Assembly (NCBI GenBank): GCA_039028635.1
Contig: JBCCHV010000050.1
Location: forward strand, 1-49,245
Length of the DNA: 49,245 nt
Source of the DNA: Acidobacteriota bacterium
Lineage (GTDB): Bacteria; Acidobacteriota; Thermoanaerobaculia; Multivoradales; JBCCEF01
Direction of reading: 5' to 3'
The position numbers and the translations under genes were made by a program. The first letter of the stretch is position 1. Each line of letters starts with the position of its first letter. Below, piece after piece: positions 1-48,260 of this stretch. The notes beneath the pieces were generated by a model. It saw nothing but the letters and a program-made list of their open reading frames with translations. It was not told where the DNA came from and made no database searches.

Positions 1-34
1 CGGGCCCGACGGTCCAACTTGGGATGAGGCCGCA

Positions 35-165
35 CGACATGGGCGCGCTGGCGGGCCGCGCAGGCCCGAGGGGGGAGCCTCTAGCCACTGCTGGCCGGGC
101 CCCCCTGAAAGAGACAGCAGGCTCTGAACAAGTCGCGAAGCGGACTATTTCACCCGCCTGCTAGC
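35..165. repeat. Composite palindromic repeat, copy A
   Basis: This degenerate copy starts with CGACATGGGCGCGC. A G-rich/C-rich hairpin follows (GGGGGGAGCC near 71 to GGGCCCCCC near 97-105), then GAAA, then a second hairpin at about 116-165. In that second hairpin AGCAGGC-CTGAACAAGTC pairs imperfectly with GACTATTTCA-CGCCTGCT around the loop GCGAAGCG, and it closes with CTAG. The same order of parts recurs at 271-370 and 29946-30085. No coding potential is visible. The family is not one I can name. Confidence 0.7.
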
Positions 166-204
166 TGGCTGCTTAAATAGTTCTGGTGCGTGGACTCCCG
201 GCCC

Positions 205-249
205 GGGGGGCCCCCCGCGCCCAGCGGGCGTGGCGGCGCCTTTGGCGCC
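205..249. repeat. Strong GC palindromes between repeat copies
   Basis: A perfect GGGGGG/CCCCCC palindrome lies at 205-216, and a GGCGCC-TTT-GGCGCC hairpin lies at 235-249. They sit in the spacer between repeat copies A and B and add to an unusually hairpin-dense left margin. No gene is visible in 1-366. Confidence 0.6.
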
Positions 250-270
250 GAGGACGGGGGTGAAGGCGCG

Positions 271-370
271 CGACATGCGCGCGCGCCTGAGGGGGGCGCC
301 TTTTAGCCCCCCTGAAACAAACAGCAGGTGCTGAATAAGCCGCCACGCGGCTTTTTCAGCAACCTGCTAG
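271..370. repeat. Composite palindromic repeat, copy B (carries the GNAT stop codon)
   Basis: This copy is CGACATGCGCGCGC, a GGGGGGCGCC/AGCCCCCC hairpin (about 291-312), GAAA, then a near-perfect hairpin at 323-368 in which AGCAGGTGCTGAATAAGCC pairs with GGCTTTTTCAGCAACCTGCT. The terminal CTAG (367-370) provides the TAG stop of the minus-strand acetyltransferase, so the gene ends inside the repeat. On the minus strand the hairpin has only a short A-rich tail, so terminator action is possible but unproven. Confidence 0.75.
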
Positions 371-903
371 AGCGCGAGGACCATCTTGGTCATGTCGTGC
401 GCCTGACCGTCCGGGTCGGTACCGTAGCCGGGGAACTCGGTCGGCTTGAAGCCGAGGCCCTTGAGCACCTTGACGGCGTCGTCCTCGAGGTCCGAGATCA
501 ACATGCAGGTGAGGTGACGCAGGCCGTTGGCCCGGGCGATGTCGATGAAGTGGTTGACCAGCAGGGAACCCAGTCCCATCTTGCGATAGTCCGGATCGAT
601 CAGCCACTTGATGCGGCCGACGAGACGCAGCGGTCCACCGGCACGGCGGTGCAGGGTGGCATCGGCGACGACGTTGCCGCCGTCGATGACGAGCAGCGGA
701 AAGGCCTTGCCGTAGTCGAGGTTCCGCCCCCAGGCTTCGACCAAGCCACGATCATCGATACGGTCCCAGGCGAACCGGCGGGTGTCCTCCGGCAGGGTGC
801 GGAAAAACTCGTAGAGGGCATCCGTGTCCTTCTCCGTGAAGGGTCGGAGCAGGACACGGCGGCCATCCCTCAGAGCCGCCTCCTGTGGATATCGGCTGAG
901 CAT
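367..903 (-). CDS. GNAT family N-acetyltransferase
   Basis: The 178-residue protein has the GNAT fold pattern. The acetyl-CoA pyrophosphate-binding motif A is visible as RKMGLGSLL at residues 107-115 (R/Q-x-x-G-x-G), preceded by the beta strand GRIKWLIDPDY and followed by an amphipathic helix. Members transfer acetyl groups from acetyl-CoA to amines; the substrate cannot be read from sequence. The ATG at 903 has a strong ribosome site (GAGGAGGA) just upstream. It is the last of three co-directional genes (ALDH, DUF899, GNAT). Its TAG stop is formed by the CTAG end of the palindromic repeat copy B, which suggests the insertion trimmed or replaced the original 3' end. Family confident; specific role unknown. 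Confidence 0.85.
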   Translation of the reverse strand: MLSRYPQEAALRDGRRVLLRPFTEKDTDALYEFFRTLPEDTRRFAWDRIDDRGLVEAWGRNLDYGKAFPLLVIDGGNVVADATLHRRAGGPLRLVGRIKWLIDPDYRKMGLGSLLVNHFIDIARANGLRHLTCMLISDLEDDAVKVLKGLGFKPTEFPGYGTDPDGQAHDMTKMVLAL

Positions 904-14613: not shown

Positions 14614-15510
14614 TCAGGAGCCCGCAGCGAAGTCGATCACCATCTGGGCGAGCTCTTCACCGCAGTCTTCCTGAATGAAGTGGCCGCCGCCGGCGAGGCG
14701 GCGATGGGCCTGGCCGTGGGCGCCCGGTACTTTGGTCTCGAAGATGCGCTCGCCGCCAGAGAAGATCGGGTCGCTGTCGCCAAAGGCGGTCAGTAGCGGC
14801 TTTTCCCAAGCGGTCAGCTGGTGCCATGCGGCGAGATTGGCGAGGGCTTCGGGCTCTTCGTCCTGTAGTGGCACCAGCATCGGGAACTGGCGCGCTCCGG
14901 CCTTGAAGCTCTCGTCCGGAAAGGGAGCATCGTAGGCCGCCACGACCTCCGGCGGCAGCTCCTGGACCGTCGCTCCCTGGATGATTCGGCCGGCCGGAAA
15001 GACCGGTACTTCCTGCGAATAGCGCTGCCAGGCATCGAAGGCTTCGTTGCGGGTCTTGCTGCCGATCGGCAAGCCGGTGTTCGAGACCACCACGCGGGCG
15101 AAGCGCTCCCCCGCCTCGGCCACCAGCCGGAGCCCGAGGAGACCGCCCCAGTCCTGGCAAAACAGAGTGATCGCCGACAGATCGAGGCTCTCGAAGAGCA
15201 GCTCGCGCAGCCAGGCGAGATGGCTCTGATAGGTGTAGTCGGAGCGCTCCGTCGGCTTGTCCGAGCGCCCGAACCCGATCAAATCCGGCGCCACCACCCG
15301 ATGCCCCGCGGCCGCCAAGGGCGGCACCATCTTGCGATAGAGGTAGCTCCAGGACGGCTCGCCATGGAGCAGCAGTACGGGAGCAGCATCCGCCGGCCCC
15401 TCGTCGACATAGTGCATGCGGAGGCCCGAGCCGAGCTCCGCATAGTGGGGCGCGAACGAGTAACCCGGTAGGTTCTCGAAGCGTTCGTCAGGGGTTCTCA
15501 ACGCCTTCAT
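14614..15510 (-). CDS. Alpha/beta hydrolase, haloalkane dehalogenase type
   Basis: The 298-residue protein matches haloalkane dehalogenases. It has the oxyanion motif HGEPSWSYLYRKM, the nucleophile Asp in FCQDWGG, an acidic residue in FGDSDPIF and the catalytic His in GGHFIQED. The Asp nucleophile (not Ser) with a Trp beside it argues for dehalogenase rather than esterase. Substrates cannot be inferred. ATG 15510 follows AGGAGG; the frame is open further upstream, but the added sequence has no family similarity. A divergent AT-rich strip (15540-15590) is likely to carry its promoter. Confidence 0.83.
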   Translation of the reverse strand: MKALRTPDERFENLPGYSFAPHYAELGSGLRMHYVDEGPADAAPVLLLHGEPSWSYLYRKMVPPLAAAGHRVVAPDLIGFGRSDKPTERSDYTYQSHLAWLRELLFESLDLSAITLFCQDWGGLLGLRLVAEAGERFARVVVSNTGLPIGSKTRNEAFDAWQRYSQEVPVFPAGRIIQGATVQELPPEVVAAYDAPFPDESFKAGARQFPMLVPLQDEEPEALANLAAWHQLTAWEKPLLTAFGDSDPIFSGGERIFETKVPGAHGQAHRRLAGGGHFIQEDCGEELAQMVIDFAAGS

Positions 15511-15588
15511 CAAGCCTCCTCTCGAAGGCCAGGATGGTAGCAGCTCGGAATCTCTATGATATAAATAAATAGACATTACAGAATAATA

Positions 15589-29945: not shown

Positions 29946-30085
29946 CTAGCAGGCAGCTGAAAAAGTCATCGGCGACCTGCGACCGAGCCCGGGACGCGCA
30001 GTCAGGGGCGCGTAGCCCCTCTCGGAAAAAACGGCTAGCAGAGCTGGAAAAGGACGCGGAGCGGACTTTTTCAGCAACCTGCTAG
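29946..30085. repeat. Composite palindromic repeat, copy C (ends the PDZ gene)
   Basis: This copy begins with a half-site CTAGCAGGCAGCTGAAAAAGTC (29946-29967). After a spacer it repeats the composite order: AGGGGCGCGTAGCCCCT hairpin (about 30003-30020), GGAAAAAAC, then CTAGCAGAGCTGGAAAAGG paired with GACTTTTTCAGCAACCTGCTAG around GCGGAGCG. The terminal CTAG (30082-30085) forms the TAG stop of the minus-strand PDZ gene, just as copy B does for the GNAT gene. It separates the convergent fusion protein and PDZ genes. Confidence 0.75.
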
Positions 30086-30819
30086 TACGCGCGCTTGCGG
30101 TCGACGGGGGCCTCGGCGAGCTCGAGGTCGAGCTCGAAGAGGGTGCCGTGGCTACTCACTTCGAGCAACATGATGTTGCCGACGCCGGCGGTGCGGATCA
30201 GCGACACCAGGGTGCCGACACTGCCCACCTCGTAGCCATCCATGCGCAGGATCATGTCGCCCGGCACCAGGCCCGAGAACTCCGCCGGGCTACCGGGCTC
30301 GATCTCGCCCACCAACACACCCTGGCCTTCACCACCGCCCCAGAACTCACGTAGCTGCAGGGGTAGATCGATGGCCTTGAGGCCGGACCAGGCGCGCTTG
30401 TAGGAGAGCCGCCCCTCGGGGGCTTCCTCGAGATCGAGGTCGACGTAGAAGAACTCACCGCGGCGCAGCAGATCGACGGAAACACTGTCCCCCGGCTCGT
30501 AGCTGCGGATCATGCTCGAGAAATCGCGCGAGGAAGAAACCGCCTCGCCGTCGATGCGGTAGATGATGTCGCCCGAGCGCAGGCCCGCGTGATCCGCCGG
30601 ACCGTCCTTGGCGACCTTGCCGATCATCGCCCCTCGACCACCGAGCTCGGCGAGGGCCTCGGCGAAGTCAGGGCGCGGCAGATTCGACGGCACCGCTTTG
30701 ACGGTGACTCCCGCCCAGCCTGGAATCTGTTCATCCTCCTGTCCCGCCGCGAAAAGCGCGAACACCAGGAAGGAGAGCAGCGTCGAGAAGACGATGATCG
30801 TGGCGGAATACCGTTTCAT
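30082..30819 (-). CDS. Double-PDZ domain envelope protein
   Basis: The 245-residue protein has an N-terminal signal or anchor (residues 5-26, SATIIVFSTLLSFLVFALFA) and two PDZ domains, one with KDGPADHAGLRSGDIIYRIDGE and one with EPGSPAEFSGLVPGDMILRMDGY. No protease domain is present, so it is probably a scaffold or regulator in the periplasm. ATG 30819 is chosen for the signal peptide; the longer open frame upstream has none. Its stop comes from repeat copy C. Confidence 0.82.
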   Translation of the reverse strand: MKRYSATIIVFSTLLSFLVFALFAAGQEDEQIPGWAGVTVKAVPSNLPRPDFAEALAELGGRGAMIGKVAKDGPADHAGLRSGDIIYRIDGEAVSSSRDFSSMIRSYEPGDSVSVDLLRRGEFFYVDLDLEEAPEGRLSYKRAWSGLKAIDLPLQLREFWGGGEGQGVLVGEIEPGSPAEFSGLVPGDMILRMDGYEVGSVGTLVSLIRTAGVGNIMLLEVSSHGTLFELDLELAEAPVDRKRAY

Positions 30820-31106
30820 CAGCAATCGTTCTTCACTGTCCAAGGCGCCACCATCGAGAGATCGCGCGAGGCAATCCGAGGCACCACCACAAGAATGCGC
30901 AAGGGAGTACTTGAGGTCTGCTCCCATTTTGCTAGATCAATGCTCCTATGAGCACCGATTTCCTCCCAATACGCCCTCGAAGGCCGAATGGTTGAGGTCG
31001 CGTCTCTCCAAATGATGGCTCGCCGAGGCTGTGCGCGACTGCTAGGATTCGATTTCGCCGACCCAGAAACCGTGGGCAGCCCGACGCCCGAGACTTCACG
31101 CCAGCG

Positions 31107-40322: not shown

Positions 40323-40351
40323 TTGACTCTAGAGCCTATTGCAGAAATAAT
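40323..40351 (+). promoter_or_regulatory. Promoter of the fusion glycan gene
   Basis: TTGACT (40323-40328), 17 bases, AATAAT (40346-40351). It drives a leader of about 90 bases before ATG 40450. Confidence 0.6.
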
Positions 40352-40390
40352 TGCAACATTCTCTCCAAGCCTCAAAGGGATCCCTCGAGG

Positions 40391-40431
40391 GGCCGTTCCG
40401 GCCGCTCCTTCGGATCTCTCCGGGAACGGCC
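40391..40431 (+). promoter_or_regulatory. Leader hairpin just before the ribosome site
   Basis: GGCCGTTCC (40391-40399) pairs perfectly with GGAACGGCC (40423-40431); the ribosome site GGGAGGAGCGGAG begins four bases later. Such a placement could control translation or stability. No ligand or protein is suggested by the sequence. Confidence 0.45.
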
Positions 40432-40449
40432 TTCGGGAGGAGCGGAGTT

Positions 40450-43400
40450 ATGTTCGATCTTGAATTCACGGGCGAGCGCATGGTCCCCGGCAAGGTGGAG
40501 CCGGAACTGCAACTCGAACACGCTTCACGGTACCACTTCGCCGGCCAGCTAGCGCGCGGTCGGCGGGTGCTCGACTTCGGCTGTGGCGCCGGCTACGGCG
40601 CCGCCATCTTGCAGAAGGCCGGGGCCCGATCGACCCTCGGCTGCGACCTGGCAGCGGACGCCATCGCCTTCGCCCGCAGCCGCTATCGCCTCCCGGACCT
40701 GCAGTTCTTCGTCACCGACTGCGAGCAAGCCGCCCTGCCGGACGGCGCCTTCGATCTGATCGTCGCCTTCGAGATCATCGAGCACCTGCGCTCCTACCGC
40801 AGCTTCCTCGCCGAGGTCCGTCGGCTCCTGGCACCGCAAGGGCTGTTCATCCTGTCGACGCCCAACAAGGAGACCTACCGCAGCGAGCCGGGGGCGGCAC
40901 CGAACCCGTTCCACGTTCACGAGTTCGAGCTCGGCGAGCTGCTCGATGAGCTCGAGCCGCTCTTTCCCACCGTCCAGGTTCTCGGCCAAAGCCACACCGA
41001 AGGGGTGTTCTTTTCGCCGGCTTCTCATCAGGGGGCGCCGGAAGCCCGCCTGCAGCGGCCGCGACGGCAGCGCCGCGAGCCCCAGGCCGACTACCTGATC
41101 GCGGTCTGCAGCGATGCCGAGCTGGCACCCTCGGCGAGCTACTTTCACATCGCCGAGAGCAACGCCCTGCGCAACCGCACGGAACGCGTCCTGGAGCTCC
41201 AAGGGGAGCTCGAAGAGCGCACCCGTTGGGCCAAAGGACTGGAGGACGAGTCGGCGCGCCGGGGCCAGCGAATTCTCGAGCTGCAGGACGAGCTCGAAGA
41301 GCGCACCCGCTGGGCCAAAGGCCTGCAGGAAGAGTCGGAAGGGCGGGCGCGACGCATTCTCGAGCTGCAGGCGGAGCTCGAAGAGCGCATGCGCTGGGCA
41401 ACCCAGATCGAGAAGGAGCGCGAAGAGAGCGGACGCCGGGTCCTCGAGCTGCAGCGCGAGCTCGAGATCGTCGGCCAGTCGGTGCAGCGCCTCGCCGGCC
41501 TCGAAGACAAGGTCGCCGAGCGGCTGCAGGCCATCGAAGCCTCGGTCAGTGACCGTCTTGCCCCCTTCGAGGGCACCGAAGAGCGCTTGATCCAGCGGCT
41601 GGCCACCCTCGAAGCCCGTTTCGAGCACGGCGAGAGCGAGCTCGAGCAAGCCCTGCGCTGGCACCACGAGAGCCTGCTGCGCCAGCGCCAAGAGCTCGAG
41701 AGCCAGCGCGATGAGCTGTCTCGCGGTACCCGCCAGGCGCGCGACGCGACTCGCCGGGTGGCCCGCCACGAGATCGAGCTGCAAACCCTCACCCGCCGGG
41801 CGCGGGAGGTCGAGACCGCCGCCAAGACCGCCCAGCAACTGATCGACGTGCTGTGGGGTAGCCGCTCCTGGAAAGTGTTCGCGGCCCTGCGTCGCTCCCT
41901 TTCCCTCGGCGGCCGGCGCAAGCCCCCGGCGGGCGCGCCGAGCCGTCTCCCGGAGGCGCCGCGCGCCCTCCAGGAGCCCTCGCCGGCGCCCGCCCTGGCG
42001 GGCCTGCCGGAGGTCACCCAGGCCACCGAGGCAACCCTCGAGGTCGTGGTCCACGTTCCCGAATCGAGTCCCCTCGCCTGCCTCCCGGCGGTCGCCGAAG
42101 CATCCCGCCAGCACCCCTTGCGGGCTCACGTCGCCGGACCCGGCGCCGAGGTGGTGGCCGCCCTCGGCAATCTCAGCCCGATCGCTGCCGAGGAGCCGAT
42201 CTCAGCCCTGCTGGCGGCGGCCCGCAGCGCCAGCGCTCCCTTCGTGGTTCTGGTGTCGGGCGACGTCGCCCTCGAGACGGACGCCTTCGATCGCCTGCTC
42301 GAGACCTTCGAGGCGGAACCGCAAGCAGGTCTGCTGAGCGGCAAGATCCTCGACCCCCAGGGGAAGGTCGCGGAAGCCGGCTCGGTCCTCTGGCGAGACG
42401 GCTCGAGCACACCCTATGGTGCCGGCCTCGAGAGCGATGCCGCAGAGATCTCGTTTCCTCGCTGGGTCGACTTCGGTCGCTCCCAGTTCCTCGCCCTGCG
42501 CACCGCCGACGCCGCCGAGCTCGAGGTCTCGTCGCGGGACGAGGAGGCCACCATCGAGCTCGCTCTGGAGCTTCGGCGCCGCGCCCTGGGATGCCTCTAT
42601 CAGCCGGCCATCACGGTGCGCTCGGCGCGCTCCCTGGCGGCGAGTCCGGCGGCGCCACGCCCCGAGCTTCGTCAACGCTGGAGCGAGTCCCTCAGCCGCC
42701 AAGGGGCGGTCAGCGAGGACCTCGACCGCCATCGCGAGCCCAGCCGCCGCCGGCGCGCCTTGATCATCGATCATCGCGTGCCGACACCGGACCAGGATGC
42801 CGGCTCGGTGCGCATGACGGCCCTCGTCGAGGCCCTCCGGGAGACCGATTTCCAGGTCACCTTCCTGCCCGAGAACCTCTACGAGATGGCCCCCTATGGC
42901 CAGGCCTTGAGGCAGCAGAAGGCAGAGCTCATCGTCACCCCTCAGTACACGTCCCTCGAGTCCTATCTCGAGCGCCACGGCGAGGCCTTCGACCTCGTGC
43001 TGGTGTCGCGCTTCCATATCGCTTCCGGCTGTCTCGATCTGGTGCGCCGGCTCTGTACCCACGCTCGCCTGGTGTTCGACACCGTCGACCTGCAGTTCCT
43101 CCGGCTCGAGCGCCGGGCGGCCCTCGAGCAAGACGCCGATCTCGAGGAAGAAGCCCATCGCCTGCGGGAGTCGGAGCTCCAGCTCGCTCGCAAGGCCGAC
43201 GCCACCCTGGTGGTGAGCCGCAGCGAGGCCGAGATCCTGGGGCGCGAGGCGCCCGACCTCGACGTCCGCCTCCTGTCTCTGATCCACTCGACCACGGCCC
43301 CGGCGCAGGGCTTCGAGGAGCGCCGAGACTTCTACTTCGTGGGCGGCTACGAGCACCCTCCGAACATCGACGCCGCGCGCTGGTTCGTGGGCGAAATCCT

Positions 43401-43875
43401 GCCCAGGGTGCGGCAGGAGCTTCCGACGGTCCGCTTCCTGCTGATCGGCAGCAAGGCTCCCGCCGAGCTGCGCGCCCTCGCCGACGAGCACACCGAGATC
43501 GTGGGCTTCGTTCAGGACATGGATCCCTACCTCGACGGCTGCCGGCTCTCGGTGGCACCGCTGCGCTACGGTGCCGGCATCAAGGGCAAGGTCACCCAGA
43601 GCCTGAGCCATGGCCTGCCCTGCGTGATGACCTCGGTGGCCGCCGAAGGCATCGGTCTGAGCCACGGCGAGGACGCCATGATCGCCGACGACGCCGACTC
43701 CTTCGCCCGCGCCGTCATCGAGGTCTACCGCGACGCCTCCCTCTGGCAGAGCCTGTCGCGGGCCGGCCTGCAGCGCATCACCGAAGACTTCTCGCCCCGG
43801 GCCGCTCGACGCGCCATCGAGTCCCTGTGCCACGATTTCGGACTGACCGCCGGAGCTCCTCGAGATGAACGCTGA
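40450..43875 (+). CDS. Methyltransferase / coiled-coil / glycosyltransferase fusion
   Basis: The 1141-residue protein has four parts. Residues 1-190 form a SAM methyltransferase (VLDFGCGAGYGAAIL, LIVAFEIIEHL). Residues 243-354 are four exact-length 28-residue coiled-coil units, each with a core like RILELQxELEERTRWAKG, and a further coiled coil runs to about 490. Residues 560-760 resemble a degenerate GT-A domain (SAPFVVLVSGDVALETDAFDRLL). Residues 775-1130 are a GT-B glycosyltransferase (DHRVPTPDQDAGSVRMTAL, FYFVGGYEHPPNIDAARW, VAPLRYGAGIKGKV). The layout recalls chain-length-controlling enzymes such as WbdD, in which a methyltransferase and a coiled-coil ruler cap a growing polysaccharide. 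ATG 40450 follows GGAGGAGCGGAG. Confidence 0.8.
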   Translation: MFDLEFTGERMVPGKVEPELQLEHASRYHFAGQLARGRRVLDFGCGAGYGAAILQKAGARSTLGCDLAADAIAFARSRYRLPDLQFFVTDCEQAALPDGAFDLIVAFEIIEHLRSYRSFLAEVRRLLAPQGLFILSTPNKETYRSEPGAAPNPFHVHEFELGELLDELEPLFPTVQVLGQSHTEGVFFSPASHQGAPEARLQRPRRQRREPQADYLIAVCSDAELAPSASYFHIAESNALRNRTERVLELQGELEERTRWAKGLEDESARRGQRILELQDELEERTRWAKGLQEESEGRARRILELQAELEERMRWATQIEKEREESGRRVLELQRELEIVGQSVQRLAGLEDKVAERLQAIEASVSDRLAPFEGTEERLIQRLATLEARFEHGESELEQALRWHHESLLRQRQELESQRDELSRGTRQARDATRRVARHEIELQTLTRRAREVETAAKTAQQLIDVLWGSRSWKVFAALRRSLSLGGRRKPPAGAPSRLPEAPRALQEPSPAPALAGLPEVTQATEATLEVVVHVPESSPLACLPAVAEASRQHPLRAHVAGPGAEVVAALGNLSPIAAEEPISALLAAARSASAPFVVLVSGDVALETDAFDRLLETFEAEPQAGLLSGKILDPQGKVAEAGSVLWRDGSSTPYGAGLESDAAEISFPRWVDFGRSQFLALRTADAAELEVSSRDEEATIELALELRRRALGCLYQPAITVRSARSLAASPAAPRPELRQRWSESLSRQGAVSEDLDRHREPSRRRRALIIDHRVPTPDQDAGSVRMTALVEALRETDFQVTFLPENLYEMAPYGQALRQQKAELIVTPQYTSLESYLERHGEAFDLVLVSRFHIASGCLDLVRRLCTHARLVFDTVDLQFLRLERRAALEQDADLEEEAHRLRESELQLARKADATLVVSRSEAEILGREAPDLDVRLLSLIHSTTAPAQGFEERRDFYFVGGYEHPPNIDAARWFVGEILPRVRQELPTVRFLLIGSKAPAELRALADEHTEIVGFVQDMDPYLDGCRLSVAPLRYGAGIKGKVTQSLSHGLPCVMTSVAAEGIGLSHGEDAMIADDADSFARAVIEVYRDASLWQSLSRAGLQRITEDFSPRAARRAIESLCHDFGLTAGAPRDER
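41176..41511 (+). repeat. Four in-frame 84-base repeats coding 28-residue coiled-coil units
   Basis: Four consecutive units of exactly 84 bases start at 41176. Each codes a variant of the LELQ-ELEERTRWA heptad pattern (four heptads per unit). The last unit is the most divergent. Equal lengths imply recent unequal exchange or selection on coil length. Confidence 0.75.
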
Positions 43876-45320: not shown

Positions 45321-47081
45321 ATGAGCCTGACGCCCGATCTGGTCGCCGATATCCTGGTCCGCCAGGGTTCCATCACCGAAAAGCAGGGCCAGCAGATCAA
45401 GGCCGAAGCCAAGATCCTTCCCAACCGGCTGCGCTCGGCCAAGAGCTACGCGCAAAAGGCCTTGGCCTACGACATCGTTCAGCAGCTCCGACTGCGGGAC
45501 CAGCGCCAGGGCGTGGCGCTGACGGAGAACGAGATCGCCGAGGCGATCGCCGCCGATGCCGGCCTCGACCACGTCCGGATCGATGCCCTGAGTCTCGACG
45601 CCGACCTCATCGAGACCAAGATGTCGCGGCCCTTCGCCAAGCGTCATCGCATGCTGCCGCTGGCGATGACCAACGGCCGTCTGCGCCTCGCCTGCGCCAA
45701 CCCCTACGACATCGAGGGTATCGACTCCTTCCGGCGCCTCGCCGGCCGCGACATCGAGCTGGTGGTGGCGAGCGAGCCGGACATCCTGAAGGCGATCACC
45801 GAGTTCTATGGCCTGCGCCACTCGGTAAAGCGAGCCGAGCGGGACCTGCGCGGCGGCATCGATCTCGGCAATCTCGAGCAGCTCGTCCGGATGAAGAGCG
45901 AGAGCGAGATCGAGTCGAGCGATCAGCACGTCGTCAACGCCGTCGAGTTCATGCTGCAGCACGCCTTCGACTCGCGGGCGAGCGACATCCACGTCGAGCC
46001 AAAGCGCGACGAGAGCCTGATTCGCTTCCGCATCGACGGGGTGCTGCACGACATTCAGAAGATGCCGAAGGTGGTGCACAAGGCGGTGGTCAGCCGCATC
46101 AAGACCATGTCCCGCCTCGACATCGCCGAGAAGCGTCGACCCCAGGACGGCCGGGTCAAGACGCTGCGCAACGGTCGCGAGGTCGAGCTGCGCGTTTCGA
46201 CCCTGCCGGTGGCCTTCGGCGAGAAAGCGGTGATGCGGATCTTCGATCCCGAGGTCCTCACCCAGGAGCTCGTCGGGCTGGGCTTCTACTCCGAAGAGCA
46301 GGTCCTCTTCGAAGACTTCATCAGCCGCCCCCACGGCATCATCCTGGTCACCGGGCCCACCGGTTCCGGCAAGACCACCACCCTCTACTCGGCCCTCAGC
46401 CAGATCGGCAACGCCGAGATCAACGTCACGACCATCGAAGACCCCATCGAGATGGTCCACGAGGCCTTCAACCAGACGGCCGTGCAGCCCAAGGCGGGGG
46501 TCACCTTCTCCGCCGCCCTGCGCCACATCCTGCGCCAAGACCCGGACGTCATCATGGTGGGCGAGATCCGCGACGCGGAAACCGCCGGCTACGCCATCCA
46601 GGCCGCCCTCACCGGCCATCTGGTGCTGTCGACCCTGCACACCAACGATGCCGCCTCCTCGATCTCCCGTCTCGCCGACCTCGGCGTCGAGCGCTTCCTG
46701 ATCAGCTCCACCCTGATCGGTGCCATGGCCCAGCGGCTGGTGCGCAAGATCTGCCCCCACTGCACCACCGACCGCCACCTGACCCAAGACGAAGTCGCCA
46801 GCCTGCGGCTGACCGTCCCCGAAAAGCACCGAGTCAAGGTCAAAGAGGGTGCCGGCTGCTTCGAATGCCGCAGCACCGGCTACCTCGGGCGCTCCGGAAT
46901 CTTCGAGATCCTTCCCCTCGACGAAAAACTTCAGGAGCTCACCATCGCCGGCGCCGACGCCGCCGAAATCAAGCGCGAAGCCATCGGGCGCGGCATGAAG
47001 ACCCTGCGCCAGTCCGCCCTGAGAAAACTCGCCGAAGGCGTCACGACGGTCGAAGAAGTCATCCGCGTCACGGGAATCTAG
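45321..47081 (+). CDS. PilB/GspE-type secretion ATPase
   Basis: The 586-residue ATPase has an N-terminal MshEN-like region (about 60-160, with FAKRHRMLPLAMTNGRLRLACANP), the Asp box SDIHVEP, Walker A GPTGSGKTTT (344-353), the Walker B RQDPDVIMVGEIRD, the His box LVLSTLHTNDA and a zinc-binding tetracysteine (CPHC about 478, CFEC about 512). It powers assembly of type IV pili or a type II secretion pseudopilus. The MshEN region may bind c-di-GMP (inference). No other pilus gene is in the window. Length and motifs are normal. Confidence 0.92.
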   Translation: MSLTPDLVADILVRQGSITEKQGQQIKAEAKILPNRLRSAKSYAQKALAYDIVQQLRLRDQRQGVALTENEIAEAIAADAGLDHVRIDALSLDADLIETKMSRPFAKRHRMLPLAMTNGRLRLACANPYDIEGIDSFRRLAGRDIELVVASEPDILKAITEFYGLRHSVKRAERDLRGGIDLGNLEQLVRMKSESEIESSDQHVVNAVEFMLQHAFDSRASDIHVEPKRDESLIRFRIDGVLHDIQKMPKVVHKAVVSRIKTMSRLDIAEKRRPQDGRVKTLRNGREVELRVSTLPVAFGEKAVMRIFDPEVLTQELVGLGFYSEEQVLFEDFISRPHGIILVTGPTGSGKTTTLYSALSQIGNAEINVTTIEDPIEMVHEAFNQTAVQPKAGVTFSAALRHILRQDPDVIMVGEIRDAETAGYAIQAALTGHLVLSTLHTNDAASSISRLADLGVERFLISSTLIGAMAQRLVRKICPHCTTDRHLTQDEVASLRLTVPEKHRVKVKEGAGCFECRSTGYLGRSGIFEILPLDEKLQELTIAGADAAEIKREAIGRGMKTLRQSALRKLAEGVTTVEEVIRVTGI

Positions 47082-47525: not shown

Positions 47526-47585
47526 ACGGACCGGTAGAGCGCCTGCGACCACCCACTACACCGATCTCTGAGATTTGAGCCCCCG

Positions 47586-48240
47586 AGCCACCTCCAACGG
47601 AGTCTTCCGGGGCCTGGTGAGCGAGCACGGAGCGCAGGTGTTTGAGCGCCACTGACGAATCCGAAGCAAAAAAACCGTCAAAGGAGCACCCCCTCCTCGA
47701 AGCCACTACCAGACGCGCGAGTTCCGAGCACCGCGCGCAGCCACCAGGACACGGACGACGGCCCAGCAAGATCCACCTCCCCCTCCCCACCTTCGGAGCC
47801 CGCCGCGCCCCCGCAAGCCCAAACCCCCAGCCACCTCCATCGGAGTCGTCCGGGGCCTGGTGAGCGAGCACGGAGCGCAGATGTCTGAGCTCCACCTACG
47901 AATCCGAAGCCGAAACCCTCAAAAGAGCAACGCTTCATCGAAGCCACCAACAGAAGCGCGAGTTCCGAGCACCGAGCGCAGCCACCAGGACACGGAAGAC
48001 GGCACAGCAAGCTCCACACCCCCCTTCAACCCTTCGGAGCCCGCCGCGCCCCCGCAAGCCCAAACCCCCAGCCACCTCCATCGGAGTCGTCCGGGGCCTG
48101 GTGAGCGAGCACGAAGCGCAGATGTTCGAGCTCCACTTACGAATCCGAAGCCGAAGCCCAACGCTTCATCGAAGCCACCAGCAGACGCGCGAGTTCCGAG
48201 CACCGAGCGCAGCCACCAGGCCCTGGACGACGGCCCAACA
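47586..48240. repeat. Tandem array of ~242-base units (2.7 copies)
   Basis: Units begin with AGCCACCTCC at 47586, 47829 and 48070 (periods 243 and 241); the last is cut at about 48240. Each unit contains two near-identical GAGCACxGAGCGCAG words, and a CCTGGTG...CACCAGG inverted pair. The units differ by small changes, not by frame-keeping ones, which argues against coding. Purpose unknown. Confidence 0.75.
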
Positions 48241-48260
48241 AAGAAAAAGCGGCCATAAGA

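Follow-up and report, generated by a model that had tools for sequence, protein, structure and literature searches.

A putative IS5-type MITE family flanked by CTAG coincides with gene stop codons in an Acidobacteriota genome

The window, i.e., the whole stretch of 49,245 nucleotides that was analyzed, is contig C50 of G000, a 6.28-Mb draft genome of an Acidobacteriota bacterium in 117 contigs. It contains three copies (A, B and C) of a repeat and two genes whose stop codons lie within four bases that flank copies B and C:

1..164 (+): copy A, the right part of an element whose other end is cut off by the contig start; it ends TATTTCACCCGCCTG-CTAG (CTAG at 161-164)
161..370 (+): copy B, with left end CTAG-CTGGCTGCTTAAATA and right end TTTTTCAGCAACCTG-CTAG
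367..370: putative target site CTAG; its CTA, read on the minus strand, is the TAG stop of the GNAT gene
367..903 (-): GNAT gene, 178 aa, Pfam PF13302/PF00583, stop within the target site
29946..30085 (+): copy C, complete, 140 bp, CTAG-CAGGCAGCTGAAAAA ... TTTTTCAGCAACCTG-CTAG
30082..30085: putative target site CTAG, with the stop (TAG) of the PDZ gene inside it
30082..30927 (-): PDZ gene, 281 aa, PF13180, stop within the target site

The CTAG at 161-164 is common to copies A and B, no gene adjoins copy A, and the left end of copy B is degenerate by a by-eye count. Copy C has the layout CTAG, 132 bp, CTAG, with an inner deletion compared to the longer members of the family. The original prediction, made from the letters of the window, was that the terminal CTAG of the repeat is the TAG stop of the minus-strand GNAT (367-370) and PDZ (30082-30085) genes, and this was confirmed. 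The three-copy repeat family that it described is real, although the units were drawn too short: copy B spans 161-370, and copy A is truncated by the contig start. The proposed fixed order of a G-rich hairpin, GAAA and a hairpin ending in CTGCTAG holds in copies A and B, whereas copy C has the linker GGAAAAAAC. The observation is, therefore, partly confirmed, and its interpretation, a target-specific mobile or regulatory element similar to REP/REPIN systems with a built-in stop, is partly supported. Other repeats of the window are a tandem repeat of about 241 bp (47581-48241, up to three copies, 88-90% identity) between genes ending at 47081 and 48336, and 84-bp in-frame repeats (41191-41465) in the long ORF 40351-43875, with units of 28 residues that perhaps form a coiled coil.

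The genome-wide search that the original prediction called for showed the repeat to be abundant. With up to two mismatches, the end motif TTTTTCAGCAACCTGCTAG occurs at 252 sites in G000 (133 forward, 119 reverse), compared to none for the reversed pattern; the repeat is thus not due to chance. Many of the listed end sites are near contig ends, as expected because repeats break an assembly. The part of G000 that was read amounts to 1.22 Mb (eight contigs, some of them partial, the window included; GC 67%) and contains 56 ends with up to three mismatches (control, 0), of which 41 are in 19 clusters with partners and 15 are single, several of them at contig starts or ends. The complete unit has the form CTAG-CAGGYTGCTGAAAAA ... 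TTTTTCAGCARCCTG-CTAG, with inverted ends. We counted 31 elements in the 1.22 Mb, 18 of them two-ended; four of 53 end-like sites, with a flank more than one base off CTAG, were dropped from this count. The family is mostly 125-260 bases long, and the two-ended elements range from 125 to 412 bp, those of about 400 bp having, by eye, the appearance of two fused elements. Alignment of 14 of the 18 two-ended elements revealed one common plan, in which a left hairpin, a GC-rich hairpin and a variable middle are followed by a G-rich hairpin, a GAAA-like linker and a right hairpin ending in CTGCTAG. The repeat is, as a MITE should be, short, transposase-free and dispersed in many copies (31 elements, 252 end sites). 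A minimal unit of 40 bp, CTAG-hairpin-CTAG, is located at a gene stop at C6:99485-99524; at this locus the ortholog in the sister genome G001 lacks the unit and is closed by a TGA one residue further on.

The same ends are found far beyond this genome. With no more than one mismatch, the motif TTTTTCAGCARCCTGCTAG was detected in 11 of 148 genomes of the class, G000 and G001 among them, and an exact scan of bacterial and archaeal species genomes returned at least 118 stretches with the end motif. The phyla among the matches listed are Proteobacteria, Acidobacteria, Nitrospirota, Nitrospinota, Chloroflexota, Planctomycetes, Methylomirabilota and others. It should be noted that several of the listed loci come from one genome (e.g., L137, L148 and L176, isolate AA50), and the loci are therefore not independent. 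The 22 short elements among these matches that were compared by eye share the ends and have mostly unrelated inner sequences. At three loci, the family ends surround a gene for a transposase:

L156, Hainich bacterium: family ends around an IS5-family transposase, flanks CTAG/CTAG
L170, Gemmatimonadales: family ends around an IS5-family transposase, flanks CTAG/CTAG
L171, Terriglobia: family ends around an IS5-family transposase, flanks CTAG/CTAA

These elements are 1.28-1.36 kb long, have the 15-bp family end with at most one mismatch per end, and encode proteins of 367-371 aa. The proteins score 212-277 bits against the NCBIfam model NF033581 (IS5-family transposase; cut-off 140), also match Pfam PF05598, PF01609 and PF13751, and reach 192-216 bits, below the cut-off of 270, against the IS1182 model NF033551. 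The end motif also adjoins an NF033581 match, in each case below the curated cut-off, in three further genomes of the class: on contig C70 of G009 (motif at 559, match at 720; weak, 20.9 bits), on C173 of G027 (377 and 2-253) and on C51 of G036 (15718 and 15046-15543). Inverted repeats common with an autonomous IS5-family element were thus found in other organisms and not in this genus. A profile search with NF033581 and PF05598 gave no match in G000 or G001, with the controls detected; these are draft assemblies, in which a collapsed transposase copy could be missing. The missing resident source is not strictly defining, as MITEs can persist after their source is lost. An IS5-type MITE is indicated by the 15-bp ends, by flanks of 4 bp and by the shared transposase, and the repeat is probably a MITE family for which no source transposase was found in G000. 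The only PF01609 domain of G000 is at C54:33030-33647, in a 386-codon open frame; among perfect element ends, the nearest on that contig is about 33 kb away.

The four bases flanking the 18 two-ended elements in G000 are CTAG/CTAG in 14 cases and CTGG/CTGG in one (C1:86225), and differ by one base in three. Among the matches listed from other phyla, 24 of 52 two-ended elements have CTAG/CTAG, and the remaining 28 pairs comprise two identical ones (TTAG/TTAG in L192, CTAC/CTAC in L173) and 26 unequal ones; these counts lean towards CTAG, because the scan pattern contains it. A 4-bp YTAR-like duplication is, then, seen in G000 and is uneven elsewhere. At the GNAT site, six relatives have a CTAG that no element end adjoins. 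CTAG is best read not as part of the element but as a duplicated target, as IS5-type duplication predicts, and identical flanks other than CTAG are present in three elements. Because only two of the 28 pairs other than CTAG/CTAG are identical, the duplication is not established for each individual copy; the unequal flanks would be accounted for if they had decayed once the element was in place.

Stop codons were mapped with genes called by a custom codon-usage script (885 genes) and not by a standard gene finder. On this basis, a gene stop falls exactly within the four bases that flank 24 of the 31 elements in G000; 23 of the stops are TAG in CTAG and one is TAA in TTAG; two elements, located between convergent genes, have stops on both sides. 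CTAG is rare in G000, with 556 occurrences compared to 1631 expected from trinucleotides. The 481 CTAGs outside elements include 173 inside genes, 205 in intergenic regions and 103 that are gene stops; hence, the background is 103 of 308 non-genic CTAGs. The excess over this background is significant (binomial P = 7e-7 for 24 of 31, and 4e-6 for the 23), in agreement with the predicted target-specific mobile repeat at gene ends. Convergent spaces are favoured, with 13 of 26 elements located there vs. 55 of 306 CTAGs (P = 2e-4), and in divergent spaces elements are seemingly less common (3 of 26 vs. 68 of 306, P = 0.14). When each orientation class is compared with its own background, 19 of 26 elements are at stops compared to 11.6 expected (P = 0.001), and 18 of 26 when CTAG flanks only are counted (P = 0.005); five of the 31 elements, at contig edges, were dropped from these tests. 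Gene orientation accounts for much of the stop excess, and a modest remainder is left. The base outside CTAG, read outwards, is C in 35 of 49 flanks. That an extended target, GCTAGC, produces the stop excess was considered and rejected, since background CTAGs so flanked are not richer in stops.

In the 1.2 Mb of G001 that were read, 10 of 20 elements are at stops vs. 132 of 425 CTAGs, which is a weak excess (P = 0.06). For the other phyla, we used two-ended elements and open frames of at least 100 codons closed by TAG, instead of called genes. In the first 80 of the at least 118 loci, 20 of 28 elements coincide with stops vs. 18 of 85 other CTAGs (P = 2e-6; 6 of 34 elements dropped near locus ends). 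The remaining 38 listed loci, taken alone, are not significant (7 of 15 vs. 15 of 46, P = 0.25; 3 of 18 dropped), and the matches listed combined give 27 of 43 vs. 33 of 131 (P = 1e-5). The stop coincidence is strong in G000 and is uneven, though real, elsewhere.

Does the element supply the stop? Close homologues of the GNAT gene within the taxonomic order can be aligned over almost their full length, and all 11 homologues that were read have their stop after the same codon. The GNAT gene of G001 (89% identical) and those of L318, L320, L321, L322 and L324 end in CTC-TAG without an element end, and the latter five genomes contain no end motif at up to one mismatch. The G001 site has a G-rich hairpin resembling the inner part of the family; it may hold a decayed relative of the element and, for this reason, is not a clean empty site. 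The built-in stop envisaged by the original prediction is mostly wrong, as the GNAT homologues in repeat-free species stop at the same codon, an outcome that had been named beforehand as speaking against it. It survives in a different form in three genes of G000 (C1:11506, C1:86225 and C3:127396), which enter the element in another frame and stop, four codons in, at the TGA of the element end (GCTGA). Some insertions therefore change the protein. The repeat rarely supplies the stop, a statement for which one locus, GNAT, is well testable; for the PDZ gene, no ortholog was found for comparison of the ends.

Creation of the stop by truncation was also considered and rejected. There are 26 abutting genes, ten of which have a match in the part of G001 that was read, and for eight of these ten the alignment stops no more than 15 residues short of the C-terminus, with an identity that in several is just 28-45%. 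In six of these eight testable genes, the end is no more than six residues from that of the G001 homologue (offsets of the G001 stop: -2, 0, 0, 1, 2, 6, 37 and 78 residues). For other genes compared between G000 and G001, 76% of stops are within five residues (n = 189). The offset of +78 is a partial match with 34% identity. The offset of +37 belongs to C5:3065-4057, whose G001 ortholog runs through what is, by eye, an apparent decayed element; this putative copy (G001 C3, about 59300-59650) now is the 37-residue C-terminal tail of the gene. The apparent decayed element at the same place in G001 suggests that the element at C5:4054-4178 was inserted before the split of G000 and G001.

We consider it probable that the repeat is a non-autonomous IS5-type MITE family, for which an IS5-family DDE transposase acting in trans produced insertion at CTAG and duplication of this target, and that selection left the excess at stops. 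The transposase, supplied in trans in the past, would recognize the 15-bp end CAGGYTGCTGAAAAA. Insertion would occur at CTAG, more rarely at other YTAR-like sites, through a 4-bp staggered cut, so that a copy of CTAG would flank the element on either side. The genome is GC-rich and has few CTAGs, and one in three of the non-genic ones is a C|TAG stop; insertion at such a stop would leave TAG in frame to the left and right of the element and would not alter the protein or, between convergent genes, either of the two proteins. Insertions in genes and promoters would be lost by selection, and an excess at stops would result. The starting points of this scheme, namely the ends, the usual CTAG flanks, the stop coincidence and the element-free CTAG stop at GNAT, were observed directly.

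Three alternatives have to be weighed. The first, which we regard as unlikely, is that the transposition machinery itself prefers the 3' ends of genes (owing to DNA structure, transcription or terminators), beyond the effects of CTAG and selection. The 19 of 26 elements at stops compared to 11.6 expected in the same orientation classes (P = 0.001) are consistent with such a preference, as is the outer C of 35 of 49 flanks, although the stop excess is not explained by this base, and, in the accessible part of one account, the tetranucleotide alone does not suffice for IS5, which is said to need structural features as well (PMC5493358). However, purifying selection on 5' and untranslated regions yields the same pattern, and the counts are small, with G001 marginal and the set of 38 loci not significant. 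A broader version, in which one IS5-type lineage with a near-invariant 15-bp end extends through many phyla, with stops as landing sites and a machinery that favours 3' ends, so that its MITEs collect in stop codons at almost no cost, is improbable to the same extent.

It is somewhat less likely still that the hairpins act as terminators or stabilize mRNA 3' ends, so that the element is kept at gene ends. The 24 of 31 elements at stops, the residual excess after orientation stratification and several strong hairpins would agree with such a domesticated function. Conversely, 4 of 52 consensus pairs are changed on both sides (covariation term 0.54), which is weak, and one weak terminator-like site is present at copy C. 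In addition, both end types adjoin stops (18 of 28 vs. 7 of 18, P = 0.13; three ends of neither type excluded), and the inner sequences vary between the organisms compared by eye. A search of the window for RNA elements at the Rfam gathering thresholds returned no matches. An orientation bias of the end types at stops was rejected on the same counts (18 of 28 vs. 7 of 18, P = 0.13).

The REP/REPIN explanation, according to which CTAG is the GTAG-like tag of a palindrome mobilized by a RAYT (Y1 HUH transposase) and the element itself gives the stop, is very improbable: the ends are indeed palindromic hairpins in inverted pairs, G000 has two Y1_Tnp genes (PF01797), many flank pairs outside G000 are unequal, and GTAG REPs are reported, in the accessible part of the source, often to give the TAG stop of flanking ORFs (PMC3733652), but CTAG is a direct repeat on both outer sides in 14 of the 18 two-ended elements and not a one-sided tag owned by the element, DDE elements of the IS5 family bear the same ends, homologous GNAT genes share the stop codon without the repeat, and the two Y1 loci of G000 (3.2 kb) contain, apart from one chance-like match with up to three mismatches to the 14-bp core, no element end. 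The RAYT link suggested originally thus failed, as neither Y1 gene is flanked by the repeat and the same ends bound IS5-family elements. One Y1 transposase gene is at 1381-2307 of L031 (contig C84 of G000); numerous short palindromes similar to GGTGGCACCTGTGTGCC follow it at about 2500-2950. They constitute a separate, REP-like repeat family and may be what the RAYT of this genome is actually partnered with.

If the IS5-type MITE interpretation is correct, duplication of CTAG regenerates TAG on both strands, and an insertion in a stop codon would cost little. A target that is rare except at stops, combined with a duplication that rebuilds the stop, would be a simple route of persistence in a compact genome, and it yields a countable prediction for other elements that target CTAG or YTAR. 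The presence of the end motif in many phyla makes the stop test widely repeatable. A caution also follows: a repeat that ends in TAG at the end of a gene is not necessarily regulatory or REP-like.

Among known systems, GTAG REPs and REPINs are similar in being abundant, palindromic and mostly 3' of genes, with a terminal TAG that often is the stop (PMC3733652, accessible part). They differ in depending on a Y1 HUH transposase and in having, at one end, a GTAG tag that belongs to the element, whereas the G000 family is bounded by CTAG left and right, shares its ends with DDE-type elements and has no linked RAYT. The insertion sequences ISLxc2 and ISLxx4 (IS481 family, Leifsonia xyli) duplicate NCTAGN with a stop inside the duplicated target; as far as the available portion of that report goes, the stop is that of their own transposase and not of a host gene, and the transposase family is another (PMC2516522). 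The elements with an NF033581 transposase resemble the repeat in having the same ends in three genomes, and differ in that a transposase is absent from the window elements and the search of G000 yielded no NF033581 gene. The original paper on the Chunjie MITE of Geobacter uraniireducens, to judge by its title, reportedly tells of a MITE that entered an operon and left the operon structure undisturbed. In the accessible part of a review, this MITE is 178-235 bp long, exists in dozens of copies and disrupts one operon copy; it is likened to our repeat by description and not by ends or target (PMC10969869).

Closer is MITEPsy1 of Pseudomonas syringae pv. phaseolicola, an IS5-type MITE that transposes and is ascribed to ISPsy2 (PMC3189936). 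In the available portion of that account, it is short and non-coding, its ends have CTGAAAAAGCC and closely resemble those of the present family, and it makes a 4-nt duplication of CTAG or YTAA, as in the G000 family. Unlike that family, it measures 100 nt, has six copies in strain 1448A and was observed to transpose; its outer end bases are GGAAGGT vs. CAGGYTG in G000, and the same portion mentions no association with stop codons (PMC3189936). IS5 itself is similar in its target YTAR, which it is described to duplicate and which is mostly CTAG (15 of 24 listed; PMC5493358, accessible part). In the open-licence literature, we found no paper on CTAG-flanked or CTAG-duplicating MITEs that regenerate host stop codons; already known, as far as the accessible parts of these sources go, are CTAG-duplicating MITEs, TAG stops provided by GTAG REPs (PMC3733652) and an IS481-family element's own stop in NCTAGN (PMC2516522).
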